Positions 1 to 63,745 of a DNA stretch of 63,745 nt are shown here, piece after piece. The stretch comes from Fidelibacterota bacterium (GTDB taxonomy: Bacteria > Fidelibacterota > Marinisomatia > SCGC-AAA003-L08 > TS1B11). The notes below the pieces were generated by a model that was not told the origin of the DNA, ran no database searches, and saw only the letters and a program-made list of their open reading frames with translations. Numbering within the stretch: position 1 is the stretch's first letter; each line of letters opens with the position of its first letter. The stretch spans positions 1,220,361-1,284,105 of the forward strand of contig CP070638.1 in NCBI GenBank assembly GCA_020354025.1. The letters run 5' to 3'. A program made the translations under genes and the position numbers.

Positions 1-1293
1 CGAGCACAGCAGTATGCCGTCTGGCACATCGGTCCGTTGACAGACGAGCTGATCATGGGCCGTCTGCTGCATTACATCCTGTGCGATTCGGTTTCCCTGG
101 CTCCCGTAAGGCCGCTGAGCAGGATTTTTCAAAACGGCGGCGCCTGGCTGCTGGAAGATTCCGATTCGGAACGGGCCTTGGCGGGGGCCCTGTGGAATAT
201 ACAGGTCAATTGGGAAAGCCATACCCATAAAGACGTCAACGCCATCCACATTGCCGCCTATGGTGAGCACGTGCTTCGAAATTCAGGCTACGATGGGTGG
301 GCTGAGGGCGAATGGTCCTGGATCCACAATACATCGGAATCTTCGAATACTGTTATGATAAATGATCAGGATCACCAAATGAAACAGGGAGGCGGCATAA
401 CTGAAGGCCTGGTTGGTTGTGACGTGGAATATGCCAGTGGAAGCTCCGGATATGCGCTGCAAAACGGCCGCCATCAGCGCAACTTCATCTTCGTAAAACC
501 TCAGGATGGCAAGAACGGCTACTTTATACTGATTGACGAAGTGGCTGCCATCCTTTCCACGTCGGATAAAGCGAACGTGGCCCTGCATCCCAATTCCGCA
601 TCCAGCCCAACAGTTATTACGGGTAATGAGGAATATGAATGGGATATAGAAGGCTGTAATTACAGCGGGCATCCGGTTGGTGTAACGATCTTTCTGGGCA
701 CCAGCCCCGAAAGTGTCGACATTAAGACCGGTTATAAAGGGTCCTATGATGACTGTAGCCGGTTTAAGGGTAAATACCTGTACTCAACCTATGATACGGA
801 TATTGACGGTAAAGCCAGCATTGTATCGGTCATCTTCCCCCATGATTCTTCACATGCGGTTGCGGAGATGAATCGAATAGAGCTGCCGGATGCCAGCGGA
901 GCTGTTATCAACCATGGAGATTCGATAGTAGACTATGCCCTGGGCTCTCAAAGTGAGACTGTCGTTACCTTTGATGGTGTTTCCTTGGATGGACTGGCTG
1001 CCGTGTATCGAAAGAAAGGTGAAGTCAATCAATTCTACTTTGTGCGGAAAGGCAGCAACTTTGATGATGGATCACCCTCCCGTATCGGATTTGATTCGGA
1101 TGCCGACATAAGCCTGTTTATCAAAGACAAGCATGGAAAGATTATCTCACCGGGAACGGAGGTAACCTTCTACTATCCTGGAATAACCGGTGTGAAGCAA
1201 AACGACAGTCTGGCTTCCATATTAGACTCGGGCCCTGGATGGGTTAAGATAAATGTAGATTCAGGGACGCACGATTTACAGCTCATAAGATAA
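1..1293 (+). CDS. Heparinase II/III-like polysaccharide-degrading protein, 5' end outside window
   Basis: The reading frame is open from the first base, so only the C-terminal 430 residues are present. Early in this part lies HTHKDVNAIHIAAYGEHVL, followed by GYDGW and then a W...NTVMINDQDHQ stretch. This is the pattern of the heparinase II/III-like beta-sandwich domain (H-x-D-x-N, AYGE, then the HNTV-type motif). The rest is beta-rich with no membrane segment, as in the C-terminal part of these lyases. Family members cleave uronic-acid polysaccharides by elimination; the substrate cannot be told here because the catalytic alpha-toroid is off the window. The ORF stops at DLQLIR, and a decayed secretion-sorting domain follows in another frame, so the protein may once have been longer. 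Confidence 0.75.
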   Translation, partial: RAQQYAVWHIGPLTDELIMGRLLHYILCDSVSLAPVRPLSRIFQNGGAWLLEDSDSERALAGALWNIQVNWESHTHKDVNAIHIAAYGEHVLRNSGYDGWAEGEWSWIHNTSESSNTVMINDQDHQMKQGGGITEGLVGCDVEYASGSSGYALQNGRHQRNFIFVKPQDGKNGYFILIDEVAAILSTSDKANVALHPNSASSPTVITGNEEYEWDIEGCNYSGHPVGVTIFLGTSPESVDIKTGYKGSYDDCSRFKGKYLYSTYDTDIDGKASIVSVIFPHDSSHAVAEMNRIELPDASGAVINHGDSIVDYALGSQSETVVTFDGVSLDGLAAVYRKKGEVNQFYFVRKGSNFDDGSPSRIGFDSDADISLFIKDKHGKIISPGTEVTFYYPGITGVKQNDSLASILDSGPGWVKINVDSGTHDLQLIR

Positions 1294-5154: not shown

Positions 5155-5346
5155 ATGGAACCTCCTGTTCTATCACTCATGTTCTTCTGTACATGTTGCT
5201 TTTACACTGCGTGTAATAAAAAGAGCACAGAACCTTCCGATGGATACCGAATTGAGGTGGCGCATGTGGCCTTTGGCGAGCCCGGGATCCATGCACCTGA
5301 ATGTCGGAGGATTACGCTTGATTATCCCATAATTCTCATCTACTAA
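5155..5346 (+). CDS. Short lipoprotein-like ORF, possibly a truncated gene
   Basis: Five bases after the esterase stop, an ATG opens 63 codons. A second ATG at 5179 starts MFFCTCCFYTACNKK, a lipoprotein-like leader followed by STEPSDGYRIEV, typical of the start of a mature lipoprotein. The frame then ends abruptly and nothing recognisable follows. Either a very small lipoprotein or the 5' piece of a broken gene; no family assigned. Confidence 0.3.
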   Translation: MEPPVLSLMFFCTCCFYTACNKKSTEPSDGYRIEVAHVAFGEPGIHAPECRRITLDYPIILIY

Positions 5347-5443
5347 ATTGGTCAGGAGTGGTCACCAGTTGGCAAATTCCTGCTCCGTTTTCCTGCCTTG
5401 AAGTGTCATTTACCGACGGGGGATACGATAATTACGGAAACAG

Positions 5444-5551
5444 CTACACTTTATTGCACAGGTGGGGATTTTTCTCCTCGCTTCACAGCGTATTAAGAGT
5501 CCGCTGCTGAATCCCGCCACAGGCGGGGCTACCAATTGAGCTAGTGGCGCA
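5444..5551 (-). repeat. tRNA-Lys(CTT)-like element, copy 1, with D-loop palindrome insertion
   Basis: Read leftward, it starts like a tRNA: TAGCTCAATTGGTAG (D-arm), then after 20 extra bases AGCAGCGGACTCTTAATACGC, which folds as D-stem closure plus an anticodon arm with loop CTCTTAA (anticodon CTT, Lys). The 20 extra bases contain CCCCGCC-TGT-GGCGGG, a perfect palindrome. No T-arm or matching 3' acceptor follows. It aligns without gaps over 108 bp (about 70% identity by eye) with 10239-10346, so both are copies of one element rather than a functional tRNA. Confidence 0.55.
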
Positions 5552-5649
5552 ATTATGTGGGCAAAGTTACCAACAGCAGCACTGGAAATCAAAAGGCCCC
5601 CGGATAGATGAGCTGGGCCTTATGCTTTGAGCGTATTGCCATACGCTCC

Positions 5650-5732
5650 CTACTTCAGCAGTAGTCCCGCATGGCTCCCCGCAGGGGAGTGTACGCCTAG
5701 GATTTGCGGGATAAGAGCATCTTGATGGATTT
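5650..5732 (-). repeat. 83-bp dispersed repeat, copy 1
   Basis: Leftward strand contains TCCATCAAGATGCT, then a GGCGTA(C/T)AC core and a CGGGACTACTGCTGAAGTAG end. It matches 7337-7420 at roughly three quarters of positions. In one frame it reads STKSIKMLLSR, resembling the last residues of the sorting domain of the large secreted protein (YTKSIKAVYLK), so it may be debris of the 3' end of a secreted-protein gene. Confidence 0.45.
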
Positions 5733-5878
5733 GGTGGAATGCAAGCCTGGCGACCTGGGCACGGAGATCCTACCTTTATGAGCCAATCAAAGAATCGGGG
5801 CTGGTCACTATTGAAAAACCAGAAACTATTGCTTAGCTTGAACCGGCCAATCATCTACAACTCTTCAGGAGATATAAA

Positions 5879-6784
5879 ATGCGTATTTTCAGCGTAGCTA
5901 CATTAGCTCTAGCGGGAATAGGGCTGACCGCAGCCTTGAATTCGTGTGCCGTAAGTAAGGAAAAACCGGCTGAGTCGATTTCCAGGGTTCAACCAATGCA
6001 AGATGCCCATGATGGCTGGAAGCTGGGGATCCAGGCCTATGCACTCAGGGCATATTCATTCTTTGAGTCCGTAGACAAGGCGGCATCGCTAGGCCTACGC
6101 TACATTGAAGCCTATCCCGGCCAGCAGCTCAGCAAAGAAAGACCGGAAATGCAAATGGTCCACACCATCCCCGAGGATATCCGCCAGGAGGTCAAACAGA
6201 AATTGGCCGGAGCGGGCATCAATCTAGTCAATTACGGCGTGGTGGATCTCCCCAATGACGAGGTCGAATGCCGCAAGGTGTTCGATTTCGCTAAGGAGAT
6301 GGGTATTGAAACCATAGTTTCCGAGCCACCGGAGGAGGCTTTCCTTCTGATTGACCGGTTGTGCCAGGAATATCAGATCAAGATGGCGATCCACAACCAT
6401 CCGCAGCCGTCCCGCTACTGGAATCCAGAGACGGTGGCGCGGGTTCTGCAGGGCCGCAGCCAGTGGTTGGGTGCCGGTGGCGACATTGGCCACTGGGCAC
6501 GCTCAGGCCTGGTTCCGGTCGAGGTGGTGCAGAAACTGGCCGGTCGCCACCTCAGCTTCCATATCAAGGATGTAGTCGAGTTTGGAGTGCCCGAGGCTGG
6601 TGATGCCCTGTTCGGGCAGGGGAAGGTAGGCATGAAGGATGTTCTGACCGAACTCCACCGTCAGAACTTCAAGGGGCCCCTGATCATTGAGTACGAAGAC
6701 CACCCTGATGATAATCTGACTGAAATCGGTAAAAGTATCGACTACTACAACCAGGTAGCCTCGCAGCTGCAGACATCGATGTAA
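5879..6784 (+). CDS. Sugar phosphate isomerase/epimerase-like TIM-barrel lipoprotein
   Basis: 301 residues with a good AGGAGAT ribosome binding site. The leader LTAALNSC gives a lipobox with Cys23, placing the protein on the periplasmic side of a membrane. The mature part follows the xylose-isomerase-like TIM-barrel (AP endonuclease family 2) plan: LGIQAYALR at the first strand, SLGLRYIEAYPG, MAIHNHPQP, GAGGDIGHWARSG, LSFHIKDV and LIIEYEDHP, which supply the usual Glu, His, Asp, His and Glu metal ligands. Exported members occur in polysaccharide-degrading bacteria; the substrate is unknown. A second exported-looking member lies at 60731-61585. Confidence 0.75.
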   Translation: MRIFSVATLALAGIGLTAALNSCAVSKEKPAESISRVQPMQDAHDGWKLGIQAYALRAYSFFESVDKAASLGLRYIEAYPGQQLSKERPEMQMVHTIPEDIRQEVKQKLAGAGINLVNYGVVDLPNDEVECRKVFDFAKEMGIETIVSEPPEEAFLLIDRLCQEYQIKMAIHNHPQPSRYWNPETVARVLQGRSQWLGAGGDIGHWARSGLVPVEVVQKLAGRHLSFHIKDVVEFGVPEAGDALFGQGKVGMKDVLTELHRQNFKGPLIIEYEDHPDDNLTEIGKSIDYYNQVASQLQTSM

Positions 6785-7048
6785 CATCGGCTGGTTCCGC
6801 AGGGGATCAATGAATATTAATTGGCTCTTGTCTTTGGGAGATGTCAGGGATAAGATTAAACATGGCGGCAGGATTATAATGAGAATCGTCCTCACACATT
6901 CCTGGGCTACTTGACACCAGTTGAATTTGCAGGAGTTATATAGAAATTCGAGGCCGAATACTCACCTTAAGACTGGACCAATTTTGGAAAGACCTTCAAG
7001 ACTCTAAAATTCTAACTTCAAGAGTGGTCCAAAGAATGGAGAAAGGTC

Positions 7049-7255
7049 ATGCCTGAAAGACGAACAAATAAACAACGTAGAACCCTCGCGAAACGCAGGA
7101 TCAAACGCGAACGGCGCAGTGAAACCCGCGCAGATCTGGCATACCAAGCCATGATGGCTGATGAGACCGAGGCTGAGATAGATGAGGAGCGGCGCTCGGG
7201 TGATGAACGACGCACAGGCCCCCAGCGGCGATCCGGGGTCGACCGCCGTATTTAG
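7049..7255 (+). CDS. Small arginine-rich protein with ERRS/DERRTG repeats
   Basis: A 68-residue protein with a GGAGAAAGG ribosome binding site a few bases before its ATG. It is extremely basic at the start (PERRTNKQRRTLAKRRIKRE), has an acidic middle (ADETEAEIDEE) and ends with repeats ERRSGDERRTGPQRRSGVDRR. Such RRSG-x-DRR tracts also occur in linkers of PilZ and signalling proteins, but no domain is attached here. No family is recognised; nucleic-acid or membrane-surface binding is only a guess. Clear Shine-Dalgarno and codon use similar to real genes make it likely to be expressed. Confidence 0.55.
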   Translation: MPERRTNKQRRTLAKRRIKRERRSETRADLAYQAMMADETEAEIDEERRSGDERRTGPQRRSGVDRRI

Positions 7256-7336
7256 AATCTTAAGCCCTTCCTAATTCACTTTCTGGAAAGTCAAGGATTC
7301 AACACATAGCGTATGTGTTGTGGTGAATGGCCACCT

Positions 7337-7420
7337 CTACCTCAGCAGTACCCCCGCACCGCTTCCTGCAGGGCGTATACGCCCAGGGTCTGCTGGACAA
7401 AAGCATCTTGATGGACTAGG
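7337..7420 (-). repeat. 83-bp dispersed repeat, copy 2
   Basis: Second copy of the repeat at 5650-5732, lying in the 3' flank of the leftward barrel gene at 7482-8534. Leftward it reads AGTCCATCAAGATGCTTTTG, then GGGCGTATACGCCC (itself palindromic) and GGTACTGCTGAGGTAG. Confidence 0.45.
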
Positions 7421-7481
7421 TGAACTCCACCACTCCCAGTCATGCGGTGAGCTGTTCGAAGCAAATATCTCCCAATAATTT

Positions 7482-8534
7482 CTAGTAAAAATAGAATCCC
7501 AGTCCGAGTTTAAAATCAAAGATCTGGAGACTGAAACTATCGTGTTCCTCCGCCTGACCCAATCCACTCTCATAGCCGAAATAGTGCCGTGCTGGGCGGA
7601 ACTCGGCAAACAGGAACTTCTTGCTTGAAAAGGGGATCCTGAAGCCGAAGAGGGCATGAAATCCCCATCCCATGTCCTTAGAATCCAGCGCCAGTTTGCC
7701 CTTCTGAAGAGCCAGGTTGGCAGGTCCGGGATATTGAGACTGGACGCTGTTTAGCAGGAGCTGAGCTCCCAGCCCTACGTAGGGCCTTACACCAACCTTG
7801 GGCAGCCAAATATAGAAGTTGGCTCCCATAGACAGGGAGTGCAGCATCAGGAATCTGTCCGGGATCTCAAGCTGATCCAGTTGGAGGGGCACATAGGCGT
7901 CCAGCTCAGGGATGTAGATAATACCCTCCGCGTCGTAAGAGACAGTCTGCTTTTTTGTGTGATGCGAAACAAGCGAAACCTCAAATTCGCCGCCCCACCG
8001 CCGACCACTGGCGCCAAGCCGGTAACCCAAGGCGGGGAACGTCATAACCGTATTCACTTCAGGAGTGTTTGCAGTCCAAAGGGGTAGTCCATCGTCCCCC
8101 TCGAAGATACTCTCCCACTGGAAATCAAGGATGCTGGCCGTACTTGCCCCAGCAAATAAAACCCGATAGAACCTCAGGTCACTTGGTTTTCCACTCTGAG
8201 GCCCTGACTGAAGAATCTCCAGGTATCCCTTGGCAATCATCTCTGTTATTGCCCAGCTCCCAACTATTCCAGCGAGCGAGATCGCCGCCCACGTAGCGGT
8301 CGCCTTATCTGGCCGTGCCTCCTGGACAAGTGCATTGCCACCAAGTACGACTCCCCACATGAAGCTGTAGGGTGCTAAATACGACTCGACAATAATGGTG
8401 CTCAGGAGCAAAGATCGGAAAGCGACTTCCGAACTGTCAGATTCCGTGGTACGCAGATCCACGTCGTTTGCCTGAGAGATGGCTGGAAAAACACTGATGA
8501 AAAGAAAGACGATCAACAGTTTCTTAGTTGACAT
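7482..8534 (-). CDS. Outer-membrane beta-barrel-like protein, paralogue of its upstream neighbour
   Basis: 350 residues, ATG with AGGAGG 8 bases upstream. Signal peptide: MSTKKLLIVFLFISVFPAISQA. Two hydrophobic segments follow (about 40-70 and 80-105). The C-terminal 200 residues are alternating aromatic and polar strands ending in FDFKLGLGFYFY, a terminal aromatic typical of outer-membrane barrels. From FPALGYRLGA onward it aligns closely with the C-terminal half of the adjacent protein (shared GGEFEVSLVSH/GGDLEISAVSH, GANFYI/GGNFYI, YVGLGAQLL/YVGFGASLL, ARHYFGY/ARHFFDY). It lies 17 bp downstream of that gene, so the pair is a cotranscribed tandem duplication. Function unknown. Confidence 0.7.
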   Translation of the reverse strand: MSTKKLLIVFLFISVFPAISQANDVDLRTTESDSSEVAFRSLLLSTIIVESYLAPYSFMWGVVLGGNALVQEARPDKATATWAAISLAGIVGSWAITEMIAKGYLEILQSGPQSGKPSDLRFYRVLFAGASTASILDFQWESIFEGDDGLPLWTANTPEVNTVMTFPALGYRLGASGRRWGGEFEVSLVSHHTKKQTVSYDAEGIIYIPELDAYVPLQLDQLEIPDRFLMLHSLSMGANFYIWLPKVGVRPYVGLGAQLLLNSVQSQYPGPANLALQKGKLALDSKDMGWGFHALFGFRIPFSSKKFLFAEFRPARHYFGYESGLGQAEEHDSFSLQIFDFKLGLGFYFY

Positions 8535-8551
8535 GATGAGGACCTCCTTGG

Positions 8552-9880
8552 CTATCGAAACGTTCGTCCTATCCCCAACAGGAACTGGAAAGTCTGAAGG
8601 GTGAACCTGTCCTTCTCTTTTTGAAAGACATCACTGCTGACATAGTCGAAGAAATGCCGAGCCACTCGGAATTCCACGTAAGCAAAGGTCGTTTTTGAAA
8701 CCGGGACTTTTATACCAAATGGGATCTGAAATGCCCACCCCAGGCTTGTGCTATTAAGTTCCTCCCCCTCAGGGGCAAGGCCTTGGACGATCAGGGCATA
8801 GCTGCCGGGGCCAGGCTGTTCGGATTTAACTCTATTCATCAACAGCGACGCGCCAAATCCGACGTAGGGCTGGGCCAACTCGGAGGGCGTGTGGATGTAG
8901 AAATTGCCACCAAAGCCCAGGGAGAACATCCGTTGAAAGTTATCGGGAATATCAAGCGTGTCGAGAACCACTGGATACCAGATCTTTTCAACAGGCATCC
9001 ATATGTATCCCTGAATATCATAAAATACCTTTTGTGCTACAGTGTTATGGCTCACGGCCGAGATTTCCAGGTCTCCTCCGAACCACCGCCTCCAGGCGCC
9101 AATCCTCAGTCCCAAGCCGGGGAATGAGGCTGCGGATTTTACTTCCGCCGCGTTACCCGACCATATTGGCTGCCCGGGAATCGGCCCGGACTTGAATGCA
9201 CTTTCCGCATGGAAGTCCACTACGTTGCCCGCGTTCACGCCCGCATACGCCATCCAGTACCTCACCGACTTGGATGTGCCTGTGGTCCAAGCAGCTATGG
9301 ACTCTTCGAGTGGAGGTAGACCTCGGAGGGCACGGACAACCTGAATAACTGCTCGGTTGGCATCCCGGGCGCTAAAACCCCTCTCGATGGCTGATACCTC
9401 CACCTGGCCTGTTTCCACGTTGACTATACGCACTGATAGAAAGCGGACATCTTGGATCTTGCCCAAAGTCCCTAGAAATACTTTCTTAACGTTTAAGAGT
9501 TTTCCGAGTTGGACGGCGAGTTCCTCCTGGGTGACTCCTAACTGCTGGAAGGTTTGTTCTTCAATAACCTCATCGAGCCGCTGCTTTTCTACCAATTTGT
9601 AAGCTCCGCTCTTCAGCAGCTCGTCCCGGAGCAATTCCGTCATCATTGCAGCTTCCCCTGGTGACACATTCTGGGGAAGGAGATCCAAGACAGCTATGAC
9701 TACTATGCTATCACCTTGGGAAATCCCAGCAAGGAGGAATTGTGGGGTATGAGCAAGGACGAAGATCCAGACCAAGAAAACTATCCCTACTGACCTTCTG
9801 AATACTACTGACCGTTCTTGCTTATGGATTTCTGTCCAATCCTTATCTAATATCCTTCGACTGGCTTTTTCAGATTCCAT
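8552..9880 (-). CDS. CsgG-like domain fused to an outer-membrane-type C-terminal domain
   Basis: 442 residues, ATG preceded by AGGAGG. Residues 29-52 form one hydrophobic export or anchor segment. Residues about 57-190 have the CsgG/LpoB-type fold signature: IAVLDLLPQN, a helix MMTELLRDELLKSGAYKLVE followed by the K-Q-R-L-D-E-V-I-E-E-Q motif, GKLLNVKKVFLGTLGKI and VRIVNVETGQV. CsgG-like domains assemble pores or sense envelope lipoproteins. The rest (about 230-442) is a beta-rich, barrel-like domain ending LLGIGRTFR and is paralogous to the next gene. No lipobox is seen. Fusion of these two parts is uncommon and suggests an envelope export or surface assembly role, which is inference. Confidence 0.65.
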   Translation of the reverse strand: MESEKASRRILDKDWTEIHKQERSVVFRRSVGIVFLVWIFVLAHTPQFLLAGISQGDSIVVIAVLDLLPQNVSPGEAAMMTELLRDELLKSGAYKLVEKQRLDEVIEEQTFQQLGVTQEELAVQLGKLLNVKKVFLGTLGKIQDVRFLSVRIVNVETGQVEVSAIERGFSARDANRAVIQVVRALRGLPPLEESIAAWTTGTSKSVRYWMAYAGVNAGNVVDFHAESAFKSGPIPGQPIWSGNAAEVKSAASFPGLGLRIGAWRRWFGGDLEISAVSHNTVAQKVFYDIQGYIWMPVEKIWYPVVLDTLDIPDNFQRMFSLGFGGNFYIHTPSELAQPYVGFGASLLMNRVKSEQPGPGSYALIVQGLAPEGEELNSTSLGWAFQIPFGIKVPVSKTTFAYVEFRVARHFFDYVSSDVFQKEKDRFTLQTFQFLLGIGRTFR

Positions 9881-10090
9881 AATTCTTAAACCTCCTGAAT
9901 TTGAATCTTCCTTTACTGGCCACGCTGATTGTACAGATTCTGAATAACATGATTGTCATGGAAATATCAAAAGATTGTCTAAGTTTAGTCATCTTCATCA
10001 TTTCCTGCACAGGAATAAATAAATCCAAGCTCCCCCAGACAATTGTCAGGTCGAGATGTTTCCAGATGCCAAGCTTGATTGATAAGACGA

Positions 10091-10128
10091 GACGATGACC
10101 AGTGCCTCAGACGATGACCAGTGCCTCA
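10091..10128 (+). repeat. 19-bp tandem duplication
   Basis: The unit GACGATGACCAGTGCCTCA occurs twice in direct succession with no mismatch. It is non-coding as far as can be seen. Confidence 0.8.
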
Positions 10129-10238
10129 GTGGGACGTAGGTCTGTCAATTAACGTGGGAGTCTTTGAGGAAGGGCGTCAAGGGCAATGGACGTAGCATAT
10201 TGTAAAGTAAAAAGCTTATAAGGGAATATCTCCGGCAG

Positions 10239-10346
10239 ATACGCTTCATTGTACAATTGGGGATTTTTATCAAGGAAACGTAATGTACAAAGATTCCGTT
10301 GCTGAATCCTGCCTCAAACTGTGCTGCCAATTGAGCTAGCTGCGCT
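10239..10346 (-). repeat. tRNA-Lys(CTT)-like element, copy 2
   Basis: Leftward strand: TAGCTCAATTGGCAG, then 20 inserted bases ending GGCAGGATTC, then AGCAACGGAATCTTTG; the anticodon position again reads CTT. Same length and ungapped alignment with 5444-5551. The inserted palindrome is degenerate here (the CCCGCC arm is lost), and there is no T-arm or acceptor partner. Confidence 0.5.
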
Positions 10347-10551: not shown

Positions 10552-11751
10552 TTACTTCAGCAGCGCCAGCACCTTCTCCTGGGAAGGAGCCGTGGTTACT
10601 TCTATACTGGATTCGCTTATGTAGGCGTCGATCTCGCTGCGGATGCCGAACTCACCGGGCAGGTAGATACCGGGCTCGATGCTGAAGCCCGCACCGGGGA
10701 TCAGCCGCCGGTTATCCCGCACCTCCAGGGCGTCGATATTCACCCCTGCCCCATGGACCTCGGTGTCGATGCTGTGACCGGTGCGGTGGGTGAAATAGGC
10801 ACCGTAGCCGGCCTGCTCGATCACCCGGCGGCAGGTCTGGTCCACCTCCATGCCCGTCACTGGCTCACCCGAGGCCAGGCGTTTGGCGATAAAGGAGACA
10901 GCCGTTTCCCGGGCTTGCTTTACCAGATCGAAGATCCGCGCGATCTTCTCCGGCACACTATCCCCCACATAGCCGGTCCAGGTGATATCCACGTAGGTAG
11001 CCTCCGGATTATCGGCCTTCTTGGCCCACATGTCGATAAGTACCAGGTTGCCCTCCTTGATTGGTGCGTGATTGCTCTTGGTGGGGGTGTAGTGCGGCAG
11101 GGCGGCGTGGGAGTCTACCGCTACGATGGGATCATCATCGGTGATGAGACCGGCATTGTTGAATTCGGCGGCGATCTGCTGCTGGATAGTGTACTCGCTG
11201 ATGTTGCGCCCATCCCGGACAGCCCCGGCGATAGTCTCGAAGGCCCGCTCACGGATTTGGTGCATGAGCGGCACGGTGGCCTTATGGCTGGTGTATCCTT
11301 CAAGTGTCCAGCGGGAATGGAAATACTGGATTATGTCACCGGATGAGACCACCTCCACGCCTGAGAGGCGGACTAGCTCCAGTGTTCCGGCATCTACTTT
11401 GCTGACGTATGGGAGAGCACAACCGGGTGAGTATTCCATGGCCACACGCTTTCGACCGGTGAGGAGTCCGGCCAAGGCCTCTTCCAGCTCCCGCCAACCG
11501 CTGTAGACGAGGATCTCGCCGGTCAAGCCCAGGAAGTAACTCTCTTCGATACGGTGGACCAGGGCTTTAGGCATTCCCTCTGCCGGCAGGAGGTAAAACC
11601 AGCGGCGGGTGAAAACCCCCTCATCCAGGGGCAGGAAATGGTGGGCGAAGGGATTAAGCTCGTGGAAATCGTAAAGCAGCCAGGCATCCAGGTCGTGCCG
11701 TACAAGGAACTCCTGGAACAACGGTAGCGTTTCAGAGGTGATCTTTATCAT
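10552..11751 (-). CDS. M24-family aminopeptidase (Xaa-Pro aminopeptidase-like)
   Basis: 399 residues. N-terminal creatinase-like domain (1-160), then the pita-bread metallopeptidase domain. All five metal ligands can be placed: Asp in VLIDMWA, Asp in YVDITWTG, His in THRTGHSI, Glu in FSIEPGIY and Glu in IRSEIDAY. Members remove N-terminal residues before proline using two divalent metals; some are general aminopeptidases, so exact specificity is uncertain. No signal peptide, hence cytoplasmic. It is transcribed leftward, divergently from ssrA (138 bp between the starts). Confidence 0.85.
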   Translation of the reverse strand: MIKITSETLPLFQEFLVRHDLDAWLLYDFHELNPFAHHFLPLDEGVFTRRWFYLLPAEGMPKALVHRIEESYFLGLTGEILVYSGWRELEEALAGLLTGRKRVAMEYSPGCALPYVSKVDAGTLELVRLSGVEVVSSGDIIQYFHSRWTLEGYTSHKATVPLMHQIRERAFETIAGAVRDGRNISEYTIQQQIAAEFNNAGLITDDDPIVAVDSHAALPHYTPTKSNHAPIKEGNLVLIDMWAKKADNPEATYVDITWTGYVGDSVPEKIARIFDLVKQARETAVSFIAKRLASGEPVTGMEVDQTCRRVIEQAGYGAYFTHRTGHSIDTEVHGAGVNIDALEVRDNRRLIPGAGFSIEPGIYLPGEFGIRSEIDAYISESSIEVTTAPSQEKVLALLK

Positions 11752-12272: not shown

Positions 12273-12352
12273 ATTGTAGAGACTCACCCTTCTGGGTGTA
12301 GCCCAATGGGGGAGCCTTCTGGAAGTAATCTTGGTCCTGGGCTACCCCGCCT

Positions 12353-12375
12353 CCCGGGTCGGGATTGAACCCGGG
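12353..12375 (-). repeat. Palindrome containing a tRNA T-arm-like core
   Basis: CCCGGGT and ACCCGGG form a 7-bp stem around GGGATTGAACCC; on the leftward strand the core reads GGGTTCAATCCC, the T-arm consensus. It lies 26 bp past the stop of the leftward 1021-residue gene and could act as a terminator, but there is no T-run. No complete tRNA surrounds it. Confidence 0.4.
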
Positions 12376-12400
12376 GAGCGAGTATTAGCCGATACCCGGC

Positions 12401-15400
12401 CTATTTCAAATAGACCGCCTTGATGCTCTTGGTGTACTCGGGGGCTACCATACGGATAATGTAGAGGCCCGTCGGTACATCGCGGCCACTGGCTGAGCGG
12501 CCATTCCAAATTACCCGGTGCCGTCCTGGGCTCATGTCAGAGTCAACAAGTCGGATGACCTCACGGCCCAGGAGATCATATACCATAACCACTACGTGAC
12601 CCCGCCTGGGGACATCAAAGCTGAGCATTGTGGACGGATTGAAGGGATTCGGATAGTTCTGTTCCAGTTTGAAGGCCTGGGGGACACCGTCCTTTTCATC
12701 ATCAACGGCAGCTGCAGATCCAAGGTTGAAATCGATATCGGCTGTCTCACCAGGGTCAGTGACCTCTACAGCAGTTGCTCCTGGCGGAATTGTCGGCGAA
12801 AAGAGTTGGTACTCGCCATACAGATTACCTGAAGGTACACCGCTATACCATTGGGGCATAATGTCGGTCCATTCGGCAATAAGCAGTACGTAATAGCCAC
12901 CGGTTCTCAGTCCGGCAACCTGGTATGTTCCAGGCGACGTGGGCGCCCCCGTCATTGGATTCCACCCTACATAGGCTGCCTGGACGAAGTGTCCTGTGGT
13001 ATCATAGACAATGATCAGCAGATCCTCATCGTCGTAGGTGGTTGCCGGTAAACCACTCTCATCGTAGACCGTCCCTGAGATGATCCCCCCGGCCGTCTCC
13101 AGGGTCATTAAGGACACATCAAGGATATCACCTGAGGTGACCGTAATGGTCTGTGATAGAGGATCATCAAACGAGTGCCCGCCACCAGAGTACATTAAGG
13201 CCAGGTCTGTGAACAGACTGATGAAGGCTAGTTTGTAGGTTCCCGCCGGAATACCGGTCAGGCGATATCCGCCCGCGAAGGTGATGCCCCAGTCATCCAG
13301 TACGTACTCTCCAGTCGGTACATCGTATAGGAGGAATAACGGTTCCTCATAATAGTAAGACTCGTAGCCTTCCGGTACTGATACGAATCCCTGGACGGTA
13401 CTGCCGATTTTGCGTACGAAGTTGATGTCTGTAGTCGTGTCCGAAGCAATTACGCCAACGGGTGTAGCCTGGGCAATAGTCACAGCGCCATCGAACCATT
13501 CGTCTATGTATTCGTCGGGTCCCTCAGAATCATAGTATATGCGGACCAGGTATTCGCCGGGCGGTAATCCCGTTATGATATAGTCGCCCCAAAATGAAAT
13601 CTCTGCATCTCCCTGGTACCAGTACGTGGAATCATTGTAGGCTTCGACCCAGCCAGCATTTCCGGCGGGAGTAATACCGTCTTCCTGAAATACCATGCCT
13701 GCGATAGCGCCGGTGGCTTCAAAGAGAATTCCTTCAAAGAATACCAAGGTGTAGGTGTAGTATAGCTCGCCCCCAGCATGGCTCCAATCGTATACCATAA
13801 GGTAATAGTCCCCGGTGTACGGCAGGATATATCCTTCGATTCGGGAATCGAGTCCATCCCAGTCATCATTTTCAGCTAGAACTGTACCTGAGGAATCGAG
13901 CAGCTCAAGATAGGAATCGAGATCACTCCAGTAGTCATAACTTGTAGTGATGTCCGCTGTGACGGTATCGCCGGCCTGGCCGGTAAAGATGAAGTAGTCC
14001 ACGTCACCGGCGGGATTGATGGTGGCGATAACGGTATCGCCATAATCGATCTGGGAAGCGGTAATAGGGCTGTCATTAGGTTCGTAGACGTCAGGGGTTA
14101 ATGGGGTCATTGGGATGGAACCTTCGATAAGCCGTAGGACATACCAGTAATCATCTCCGCCATCCGGATTACCGAAGTCTTTTACCTGCAGGTAATAGTC
14201 ACCGGTATAGGGCAATATATATTGATCAATTCTTGAGTCGAGACCATCGAAATCGTCATTGTCGGTCAGCAGGTAAGTACCTGTTGAATCATACAGGTAA
14301 AGGTAGGAATCCAACCATGAACCGGTTACGTCTGCATCTATATCGGCCGTGATGGTATCGCCTTCCTGGCCGGTGAAAATGAACCAGTCTTCATCGCCAG
14401 CTGGGTTGATGACGGCCTCGATGCTGTCACCATAACTGATGGGAGTGGCCGTTTCGTAATTGTTGTTCTGCTCGTATCCATCGTCGATAGCTGTAAAGAG
14501 GTCCAGAATGAAATCTATGCTGTACGTGGTATCAGCTGTGGCAGATACGGTAAAGATTGTGGCAGCGGCCAGGTTATCAGCCCCACCATAGTACTCCGGA
14601 GTATATCCTCCCACATAAACGTGCAGTTTCTTATCGCCTGGGGAAATGCCACTTATTGTATAACCGCCATCGGTGGAGGTATAACTATAATATGACTGAT
14701 AGTCCCATTCATAATGAGAAGACATATCGTACAGGTGAAAGTATGCCTCGGTATATGCAATGGGTGTAGTGCCATTAGTTTCGAAGAGGCGGCCGGAAAT
14801 AACTTTACCCCTGTCGAGGGTAAAATCAATGCCGGATGTAGTTTGGCCGTCGGACACCGTTACCAGGGTGGCTAGCCGCCAATCGGTCACATTATCATAG
14901 AATTCGTCTATGTATCCGCTGGCTTCGGCCAGGACGTAGTAATCGCCCGGCGGGAGATCCATGATTTGGTAGGAACCGTCCCCTTGAATAGTTTCATCTG
15001 CGACATAGAATCCGTACTCATCGAAGGCTTCTACGTCATAGTAATCAAGTTTTGTTACTCCATCGGAATCGAATACAAAACCGCTGATGCCGCCTGTCCC
15101 CGTCGCCGTGGCAACACCGGTGGTAGTTTTAAAATCTGCCTGGGAGTCCAGATCTGCGGCTTTTATTTTCATCAGCATTTCCCGGTGTCGGGCAATCCTT
15201 TCACCAGGAGTTACTGCTTTAGCCTTGGAGCCAGCGGATTTAGTTGCTCTCTTGGTGGCTAATGTTTTGGGATAGGTACGCAGTACCCTGTCTTTTTGCT
15301 TCGACTCAAAGACCTGCTGAGCAGGCTTATGGGTCAAGCGAGTAATTTTTTCCCTGGCTTGTTCCCGCCAATCGACGTTGTTGCCCGCTAGAATAAAACT

Positions 15401-15466
15401 GATCGCAATAATAAATACGCTAAGTATAGAAACAGATTTTAATATCCTAATCATTGTTTTCTCCAC
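12401..15466 (-). CDS. Large secreted multidomain protein with C-terminal sorting module
   Basis: 1021 residues. Signal peptide in the first 28 residues (ILSVFIIAISFILAG). Then: carboxypeptidase-regulatory-like beta-sandwiches at about 126-215 (GGISGFVFDSDGVTKLDYYD) and 218-320; two PPC (pre-peptidase C-terminal) domains at about 340-445 and 465-580, each with YEQN/YEPN and DWFIFTGQEGD/DYFIFTGQAGD; three further regulatory-like sandwiches to about 900; and a sorting domain at 935-1021 with LEQNYPNPFNPST, VYDLLGREV, PTGLYIIRM and the basic end YTKSIKAVYLK. It lacks any catalytic domain, so it is probably an exported adhesin or scaffold. The C-terminal module matches those used by type IX-like secretion in this group; that route is inferred. 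Confidence 0.85.
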   Translation of the reverse strand: MEKTMIRILKSVSILSVFIIAISFILAGNNVDWREQAREKITRLTHKPAQQVFESKQKDRVLRTYPKTLATKRATKSAGSKAKAVTPGERIARHREMLMKIKAADLDSQADFKTTTGVATATGTGGISGFVFDSDGVTKLDYYDVEAFDEYGFYVADETIQGDGSYQIMDLPPGDYYVLAEASGYIDEFYDNVTDWRLATLVTVSDGQTTSGIDFTLDRGKVISGRLFETNGTTPIAYTEAYFHLYDMSSHYEWDYQSYYSYTSTDGGYTISGISPGDKKLHVYVGGYTPEYYGGADNLAAATIFTVSATADTTYSIDFILDLFTAIDDGYEQNNNYETATPISYGDSIEAVINPAGDEDWFIFTGQEGDTITADIDADVTGSWLDSYLYLYDSTGTYLLTDNDDFDGLDSRIDQYILPYTGDYYLQVKDFGNPDGGDDYWYVLRLIEGSIPMTPLTPDVYEPNDSPITASQIDYGDTVIATINPAGDVDYFIFTGQAGDTVTADITTSYDYWSDLDSYLELLDSSGTVLAENDDWDGLDSRIEGYILPYTGDYYLMVYDWSHAGGELYYTYTLVFFEGILFEATGAIAGMVFQEDGITPAGNAGWVEAYNDSTYWYQGDAEISFWGDYIITGLPPGEYLVRIYYDSEGPDEYIDEWFDGAVTIAQATPVGVIASDTTTDINFVRKIGSTVQGFVSVPEGYESYYYEEPLFLLYDVPTGEYVLDDWGITFAGGYRLTGIPAGTYKLAFISLFTDLALMYSGGGHSFDDPLSQTITVTSGDILDVSLMTLETAGGIISGTVYDESGLPATTYDDEDLLIIVYDTTGHFVQAAYVGWNPMTGAPTSPGTYQVAGLRTGGYYVLLIAEWTDIMPQWYSGVPSGNLYGEYQLFSPTIPPGATAVEVTDPGETADIDFNLGSAAAVDDEKDGVPQAFKLEQNYPNPFNPSTMLSFDVPRRGHVVVMVYDLLGREVIRLVDSDMSPGRHRVIWNGRSASGRDVPTGLYIIRMVAPEYTKSIKAVYLK

Positions 15467-63290: not shown

Positions 63291-63377
63291 TCATCAAGCT
63301 GTTCATATTCCCGCCCGGAAGCTGGTAACTTCTACCAGGTTGCGCTGCTGCCCGGGATCACGACGCAGGGACTTTCA

Positions 63378-63505
63378 GGAGGAGTGGCAGAGTGGTTGAA
63401 TGCGGCGGTCTCGAAAACCGTTTCCCGATGACCTCGGGACGGGGGTTCGCCCCCGACCTTTAGCGTCGGGGATTAGTCCCGCCAGAGGCGGGAAATCCCT
63501 CCCTT
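63378..63505 (+). repeat. tRNA-Ser(CGA)-like element with T-arm replaced by hairpins, copy 1
   Basis: The first two thirds are a proper tRNA-Ser: GGAGGAG, D-arm, anticodon stem GCGGT/ACCGT with loop CTCGAAA (anticodon CGA), and a variable arm TCCCGA/TCGGGA. After GGGGGTTCG the expected T-loop and 3' acceptor are missing. Instead there are two hairpins: CCCCGAC/GTCGGGG with loop CTTTAGC, and TCCCGCC/GGCGGGA with loop AGA, the latter extended by GGGATT/AATCCC. Ending is CCTCCCTT. It is identical to 63618-63745. Whether a functional tRNA can be made is doubtful. Confidence 0.7.
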
Positions 63506-63617
63506 GACCCGGATCAGCTGGGCTCCAAGAGGGGCTAACGTTGTTACTTTCGCCTTGGTCATATGCGTAATTTTTCTTCTGAGCCGGTGATAGGAAGAAA
63601 GATCACCTGGCCTTAAG

Positions 63618-63745
63618 GGAGGAGTGGCAGAGTGGTTGAATGCGGCGGTCTCGAAAACCGTTTCCCGATGACCTCGGGACGGGGGTTCGCCCCCGACCTT
63701 TAGCGTCGGGGATTAGTCCCGCCAGAGGCGGGAAATCCCTCCCTT
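63618..63745 (+). repeat. tRNA-Ser(CGA)-like element, copy 2, reaching the window edge
   Basis: Exact copy of 63378-63505 over all 128 bp, offset by 240 bp. The window ends at the last base of the shared sequence, so the real 3' end is not visible. A contig edge falling in a repeat would explain this. Confidence 0.75.

Follow-up and report, generated by a model that had tools for sequence, protein, structure and literature searches.

The two elements and their surroundings

Two related elements, E1 and E2, lie on the minus strand of the window, i.e. the whole stretch of 63,745 nucleotides that was analysed from the source genome (G000). Each consists, from 5′ to 3′, of the 5′ half of a tRNA-Lys(CTT) gene (nt 1–39), a 15-nt spacer and a sequence of about 34 nt termed module A. 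The features at this locus are:

5345–5440, minus strand: repeat S, which follows module A at E1 and stands before A in other copies
5443–5550, minus strand: E1 as a whole, from tRNA nt 1 to the last base of module A
5443–5476, minus strand: module A of E1, with BLAST matches among the compared loci
5477–5491, minus strand: 15-nt spacer of E1 separating tRNA nt 39 from module A, delimited by the E1/E2 and unit alignments
5492–5508, minus strand: tRNA-Lys(CTT) nt 23–39 of E1 including the CTT anticodon
5509–5528, minus strand: 20-nt hairpin repeat that interrupts the D-loop of E1, with similar copies standing alone elsewhere in the genome
5529–5550, minus strand: tRNA-Lys(CTT) nt 1–22 of E1
5564–5592, minus strand: tRNA-type promoter upstream of E1 (TTGATT-N17-TAACTT), 13 nt before tRNA nt 1
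10028–10241, minus strand: promoter-leader R next to module A of E2, with a conserved core (10028–10153) and a 19-nt tandem duplication (10090–10129)
10239–10345, minus strand: E2 as a whole, bounded as E1
10239–10271, minus strand: module A of E2
10272–10286, minus strand: 15-nt spacer of E2, from the E1/E2 alignment
10287–10303, minus strand: tRNA-Lys(CTT) nt 23–39 of E2, decayed
10304–10323, minus strand: 20-nt insert of E2, decayed
10324–10345, minus strand: tRNA-Lys(CTT) nt 1–22 of E2, decayed
10552–11751, minus strand: M24 peptidase gene (Pfam), followed downstream on the same strand by an intact tRNA-Lys(CTT) in G004, G005 and G006

A sequence-only reading of this DNA had placed the two elements at 5444–5551 and 10239–10346 and described them as gapless relatives of about 70% identity that lack a T-arm. 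Both are real, with true limits at about 5443–5550 and 10239–10345, and align without a single gap at 77/108 identical positions, while the best of 5000 composition shuffles reached 41/108. Identity amounts to 19/23 for tRNA nt 1–22 plus one flanking base, 14/20 for the insert and 13/17 for tRNA nt 23–39, and it extends beyond the tRNA-derived part into the spacer (5/15) and module A (26/33). The assignment to tRNA-Lys(CTT) is likewise borne out: the tRNA-derived bases of E1 are identical to the intact gene G000:1544280 at 39/39 positions (22/22 and 17/17) and those of E2 at 32/39 (19/22 and 13/17). Neither element is called as a tRNA by ARAGORN or matched by the Rfam tRNA model, be it at the gathering score or up to E=5, and neither amounts to a functional tRNA gene, whose full cloverleaf includes a T-arm and a paired acceptor stem. 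The DNA upstream of E1 is also found at intact tRNA-Lys loci, which does not hold for E2.

Position behind the M24 peptidase gene

E2 starts 206 bp downstream of the peptidase gene and E1 about 5 kb downstream, both on the peptidase strand. The order of peptidase and intact tRNA-Lys(CTT) on the same strand was found in all three testable genera outside the genus, at distances of 1036 bp (G005), 2058 bp (G006) and 5559 bp (G004, where a tRNA-Lys(TTT) accompanies the tRNA-Lys(CTT)). This count leaves out G009 and G010, in which the peptidase is present and the matches are cut or lie near a contig end; the peptidase search gave no match in G001, G007 and G008. Reading 12.3 kb (G002) and 4.3 kb (G003) downstream of the peptidase revealed neither a tRNA-Lys nor a relic. 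The only intact tRNA-Lys(CTT) found in G000 is located at 1544280 on the plus strand beside a tRNA-Lys(TTT), about 314 kb from E1 and E2, which lie at 1225–1231 kb on the opposite strand.

A small family of tRNA 5′-half units

A search of the source genome with E1 gave 31 matches, the majority of which cover one part only. Units composed of a tRNA 5′ half, a spacer and module A were recognized at eight loci: E1, E2, c3021596 and c3108781 in G000, as well as G001:811395, G002:1720916, G003:C89 and G003:C31 in three sister species of the same genus (Ca. Neomarinimicrobiota). The further copies that the sequence-only reading had proposed to look for thus exist, which brings the total to four units in G000 and four in the sister species, with all four genus genomes represented. 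A sequence model (R1) applied to 40 genomes recovered eight full-length matches, namely the very units from which it had been built, so that its value lies in no other full-length match having appeared among the matches listed. Four of the 40 genomes belong to the genus, and 0/36 more distant genomes contained a unit. Two partial model matches (G003:C347 and G003:C288) were not counted as units.

The geometry of the family is nearly constant. Module A begins 15 nt after tRNA nt 39 in 7/8 units, and only in G003:C31 is this distance longer, by about 21 nt. BLAST matches to tRNA 5′ halves end at nt 39 (c3021596) and nt 38 (G002 unit), i.e. in the anticodon loop, which is a known crossover subsite. 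The G002 unit derives from a tRNA with CAT anticodon (97% over 38 positions, most of the acceptor stem included). Like that of E1, the half at c3021596 is 39/39 identical to intact tRNA-Lys(CTT), and the halves at the other loci are decayed. The DNA upstream of c3021596 is moreover homologous to that of the intact tRNA-Lys of G003 (84% over 121 nt). An anticodon-arm pattern allowing at most one mismatch listed 16 sites in the four genus genomes. Of these, 9 belong to tRNAs and 4 to units, 2 are unassigned, and the remaining one, at G003:C288 (locus L067), is a mismatch-free arm in inverted orientation close to module A.

Two other ways of reading the units were rejected. That module A might be the diverged 3′ half of a tRNA is ruled out upon inspection by eye, as the same A follows the CAT-tRNA half, with whose acceptor stem it does not pair; the first four bases of E1 pair suggestively with A, yet this reading was dropped. 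A split (trans-spliced) tRNA is ruled out for G000, where an intact tRNA-Lys(CTT) is present. In G001 and G002, whose assemblies are 70 and 67% complete, neither an intact tRNA-Lys(CTT) nor a close tRNA-Lys(TTT) match was found. Orphan tRNA 3′ halves beyond the far side of a unit were not seen in the 56 compared sequences, and no matching case turned up in the published literature as far as searched.

The D-loop insert

The 20-base D-loop insertion had been taken as a shared hallmark of both elements. It is indeed present in E1 and E2, but constitutes an independent dispersed repeat, a GC-rich hairpin that stands alone at several other places in the genome, and is absent from 5/8 units (present in E1, E2 and G003:C89). 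Even the orthologous units G003:C89 and c3108781, which are located upstream of the same gene, differ in that the former carries it and the latter does not. REP/BIME-type sequences are bacterial intergenic repeats, and the insert resembles them as a short GC-rich intergenic hairpin that occurs many times, with the difference that it sits within a tRNA-derived stretch.

At the end of the window, two direct repeats of 97% identity (63369–63505 and 63609–63745) each have a tRNA-Ser(CGA)-like start with a weak Rfam tRNA match (31.1 bits), and their 3′ part holds a GC-rich hairpin resembling the D-loop insert of E1.

Module A, repeat S and promoter-leader R

Module A gave 21 BLAST matches in 56 sequences (the window and 55 fetched loci); it is dispersed within the genus, with one copy in G004 from another genus. 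Repeat S comes next after A at E1, where that strand shows no evident gene. At E2, A adjoins R, a sequence of about 200 nt with 17 BLAST matches in its own genome, mostly shortly upstream of unrelated genes. The R core of about 107 nt was found in 9/298 genomes, all from the Neomarinimicrobiota family to which G000 belongs (9/11 of its genomes). A −35/−10 pattern, defined post hoc, precedes the core in 17/30 copies as compared to 0.05% of 2000 random 110-mers; the R copy of E2 itself is devoid of it. Between this leader and the CsgG-like gene at E2 there is a 42-codon reading frame that overlaps the start of the CsgG-like gene.

There is modest support for R being a folded RNA. The leader alignment (A4) contains 28 rows, i.e. 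the 30 copies minus E2 and the near-duplicate G002:1101725. Among 11 core pairs, 5 are changed on both sides, a value attained by 3/500 shuffles, while 91.9% of the alignment cells are paired versus 90.7% after shuffling and single-sequence folds have z values of −0.87 and −1.66. No Rfam leader family matched at gathering score in six loci holding R copies, and R is possibly a new leader RNA.

Other short repeats occur in the intergenic regions of the window. Those at 1992–2064 and 2807–2879 form a degenerate family, and those at 2922–2965, 5764–5807 and 7006–7049 are degenerate as well; both sets may be part of other leader types. The degenerate repeats at 5650–5743 and 7337–7429 look like the end of the coding sequence for secreted proteins whose C-terminus is FlgD-like, and remnants of this kind are present in several intergenic regions here.

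A retained tRNA-type promoter motif

The motif TTGNNN-16 to 18-TAA(A/C)TT, written post hoc from these very sequences, precedes the tRNA half by 13–27 nt in 6/8 units (the exceptions being E2 and the G001 unit) and stands 8–25 nt ahead of 5/6 intact tRNA-Lys(CTT) genes examined. In the whole window it has three matches on both strands, including that of E1; the tRNA-type promoter went unreported by a consensus promoter scanner. Between the orthologous units c3108781 and G003:C89, promoter region (58/70) and A (30/33) are conserved as well as the coding sequence (240/300), in contrast to the interval separating A from the start codon (23/41), and the loci show no relationship farther upstream. 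At several loci, the tRNA promoter and A are retained in front of an ordinary gene, whose promoter region they probably form. Conceivably, tRNA promoter, 5′ half and A could even move as one from locus to locus and from species to species within the genus as a portable promoter module that drives unrelated genes, whose messages would then start with half a tRNA. This further step is a tentative and rather unlikely reading of the arrangement.

Origin of the units

The junction and upstream DNA that the units have in common, together with their 15-nt geometry and syntenic position, are best accounted for if a tRNA gene and module A fused long ago, copying or conversion between loci followed, and relics remained in place. 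We infer that an ancestral tRNA gene became linked to the dispersed module A just 3′ of its anticodon, within the loop (nt 39). The product would have been the unit of tRNA 5′ half, 15 nt and A, which could no longer make a tRNA. Recombination at the DNA level between tRNA and repeat sequences that resemble each other may then have copied or exchanged this unit, giving rise to the neighbours E1 and E2, to the units at other loci and, in one case, to a unit on a CAT-anticodon tRNA, while the intact tRNA-Lys(CTT) would have persisted elsewhere next to tRNA-Lys(TTT). E1 and E2 themselves are most likely relics at an ancestral tRNA-Lys(CTT) site behind the M24 peptidase gene, with similar units spread or exchanged elsewhere: since E2 lies where three related genera keep an intact tRNA-Lys(CTT), decay in place explains the pair better than insertion of a travelling element. 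Counting against the relics are the peptidase loci of G002 and G003, where none was seen in the downstream DNA read, and the upstream DNA of E2, which is not recognizably tRNA-derived. In addition, the E1 half has no substitution in spite of its diverged surroundings, which suggests selection or a recent conversion event more than simple decay. The whole account, comprising relics in place, tRNA-A fusion and copying or conversion by recombination, is considered somewhat probable. The earlier proposal of a propagated element thus survives as regards further copies and near-constant geometry, but not as regards a 108-bp unit that is itself mobile in the manner of a SINE or transposon.

The main rival for the origin of the junction is a scar made by an integrase. 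Accordingly, the units would be displaced 5′ tRNA fragments (attL) of decayed integrative elements, formed by a tyrosine integrase with crossover in the anticodon loop, and spacer plus A would represent the element end. This would fit a tRNA match that breaks off on the 3′ flank of the anticodon loop, the involvement of both Lys(CTT) and CAT tRNAs and the near-constant 15-nt geometry. A precedent is given by Islander, which lists 159 islands with 5′ tDNA fragments and 2083 anticodon-centred sites (PMC4383910). Partial tRNA genes from integrative elements (PMC4383910, PMC9897764) share with the units the truncated tRNA, the break in the anticodon loop and the intact copy elsewhere, whereas E1 and E2 have no adjoining island or integrase and the units feature a recurring 15-nt spacer, a common module A and several loci per genome. 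All seven PF00589 matches in G000 are more than 280 kb from E1/E2, no island content was seen, and no intact cognate tRNA of matching orientation marks an opposite end, as the intact tRNA-Lys lies on the other strand at the distance given above. An integrase scar is a possible but doubtful source of the junction.

That a unit yields a functional small RNA from tRNA half and A is improbable. The perfectly preserved halves of E1 and c3021596 and the retained promoter would be in line with such a role, but the halves at other loci are decayed, the E1 fold is unremarkable (z −1.36; 20/200 shuffles equally good) and no terminator-like site was found near E1.

Eukaryotic tRNA-derived SINEs combine a tRNA-derived head with an unrelated tail in dispersed copies. 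The units are similar in each of these respects, and the homology of E2 begins at tRNA nt 1, as expected for a SINE-like retroelement copied via RNA. However, they are bacterial and few (four copies in the genome), and the target-site duplications that the sequence-only reading had proposed as a check are absent from E1 and E2, with no direct repeat of at least 5 nt within 20 nt of their ends. The copied DNA is also not confined to transcribed sequence, as the upstream promoter region is shared with tRNA loci, including the upstream DNA of E1 and c3021596; E2 alone starts at tRNA nt 1. The tRNA-type promoter within the homologous block of 6/8 units points to duplication at the DNA level rather than retroposition, and because of the upstream DNA shared with tRNA loci, a SINE-like origin is largely refuted and very improbable. 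A scenario in which separate tRNA genes decayed on their own and resemble each other beyond the tRNA by chance, with the tRNA-derived parts aligning in any case, had already been disfavoured by the sequence-only reading and is refuted by the recurrence of A and its near-constant spacing in eight units together with the alignment score far above the shuffle maximum.

Bacterial tRNA fragments are usually interpreted as scars left by integrated islands. In the four species considered here, they make up a small family that recurs with almost the same geometry, shares one 3′ partner and has kept tRNA promoters. If these promoters do act on downstream genes, broken tRNA genes may serve as ready-made promoters; if they do not, the family still is a clear warning that equal length and common inserts in tRNA-like elements need not mean transposons.

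Other sequences in the window

ARAGORN calls a tRNA-Ser(TGA) at 12349–12444, which is not matched by Rfam at gathering score and overlaps a large ORF (12401–15466). Furthermore, the reading frame at 37–1293 is unmatched beyond its first 35 codons at about 3018 kb of G000, where these codons themselves (window 37–141) recur identically (L011 4023–4127).
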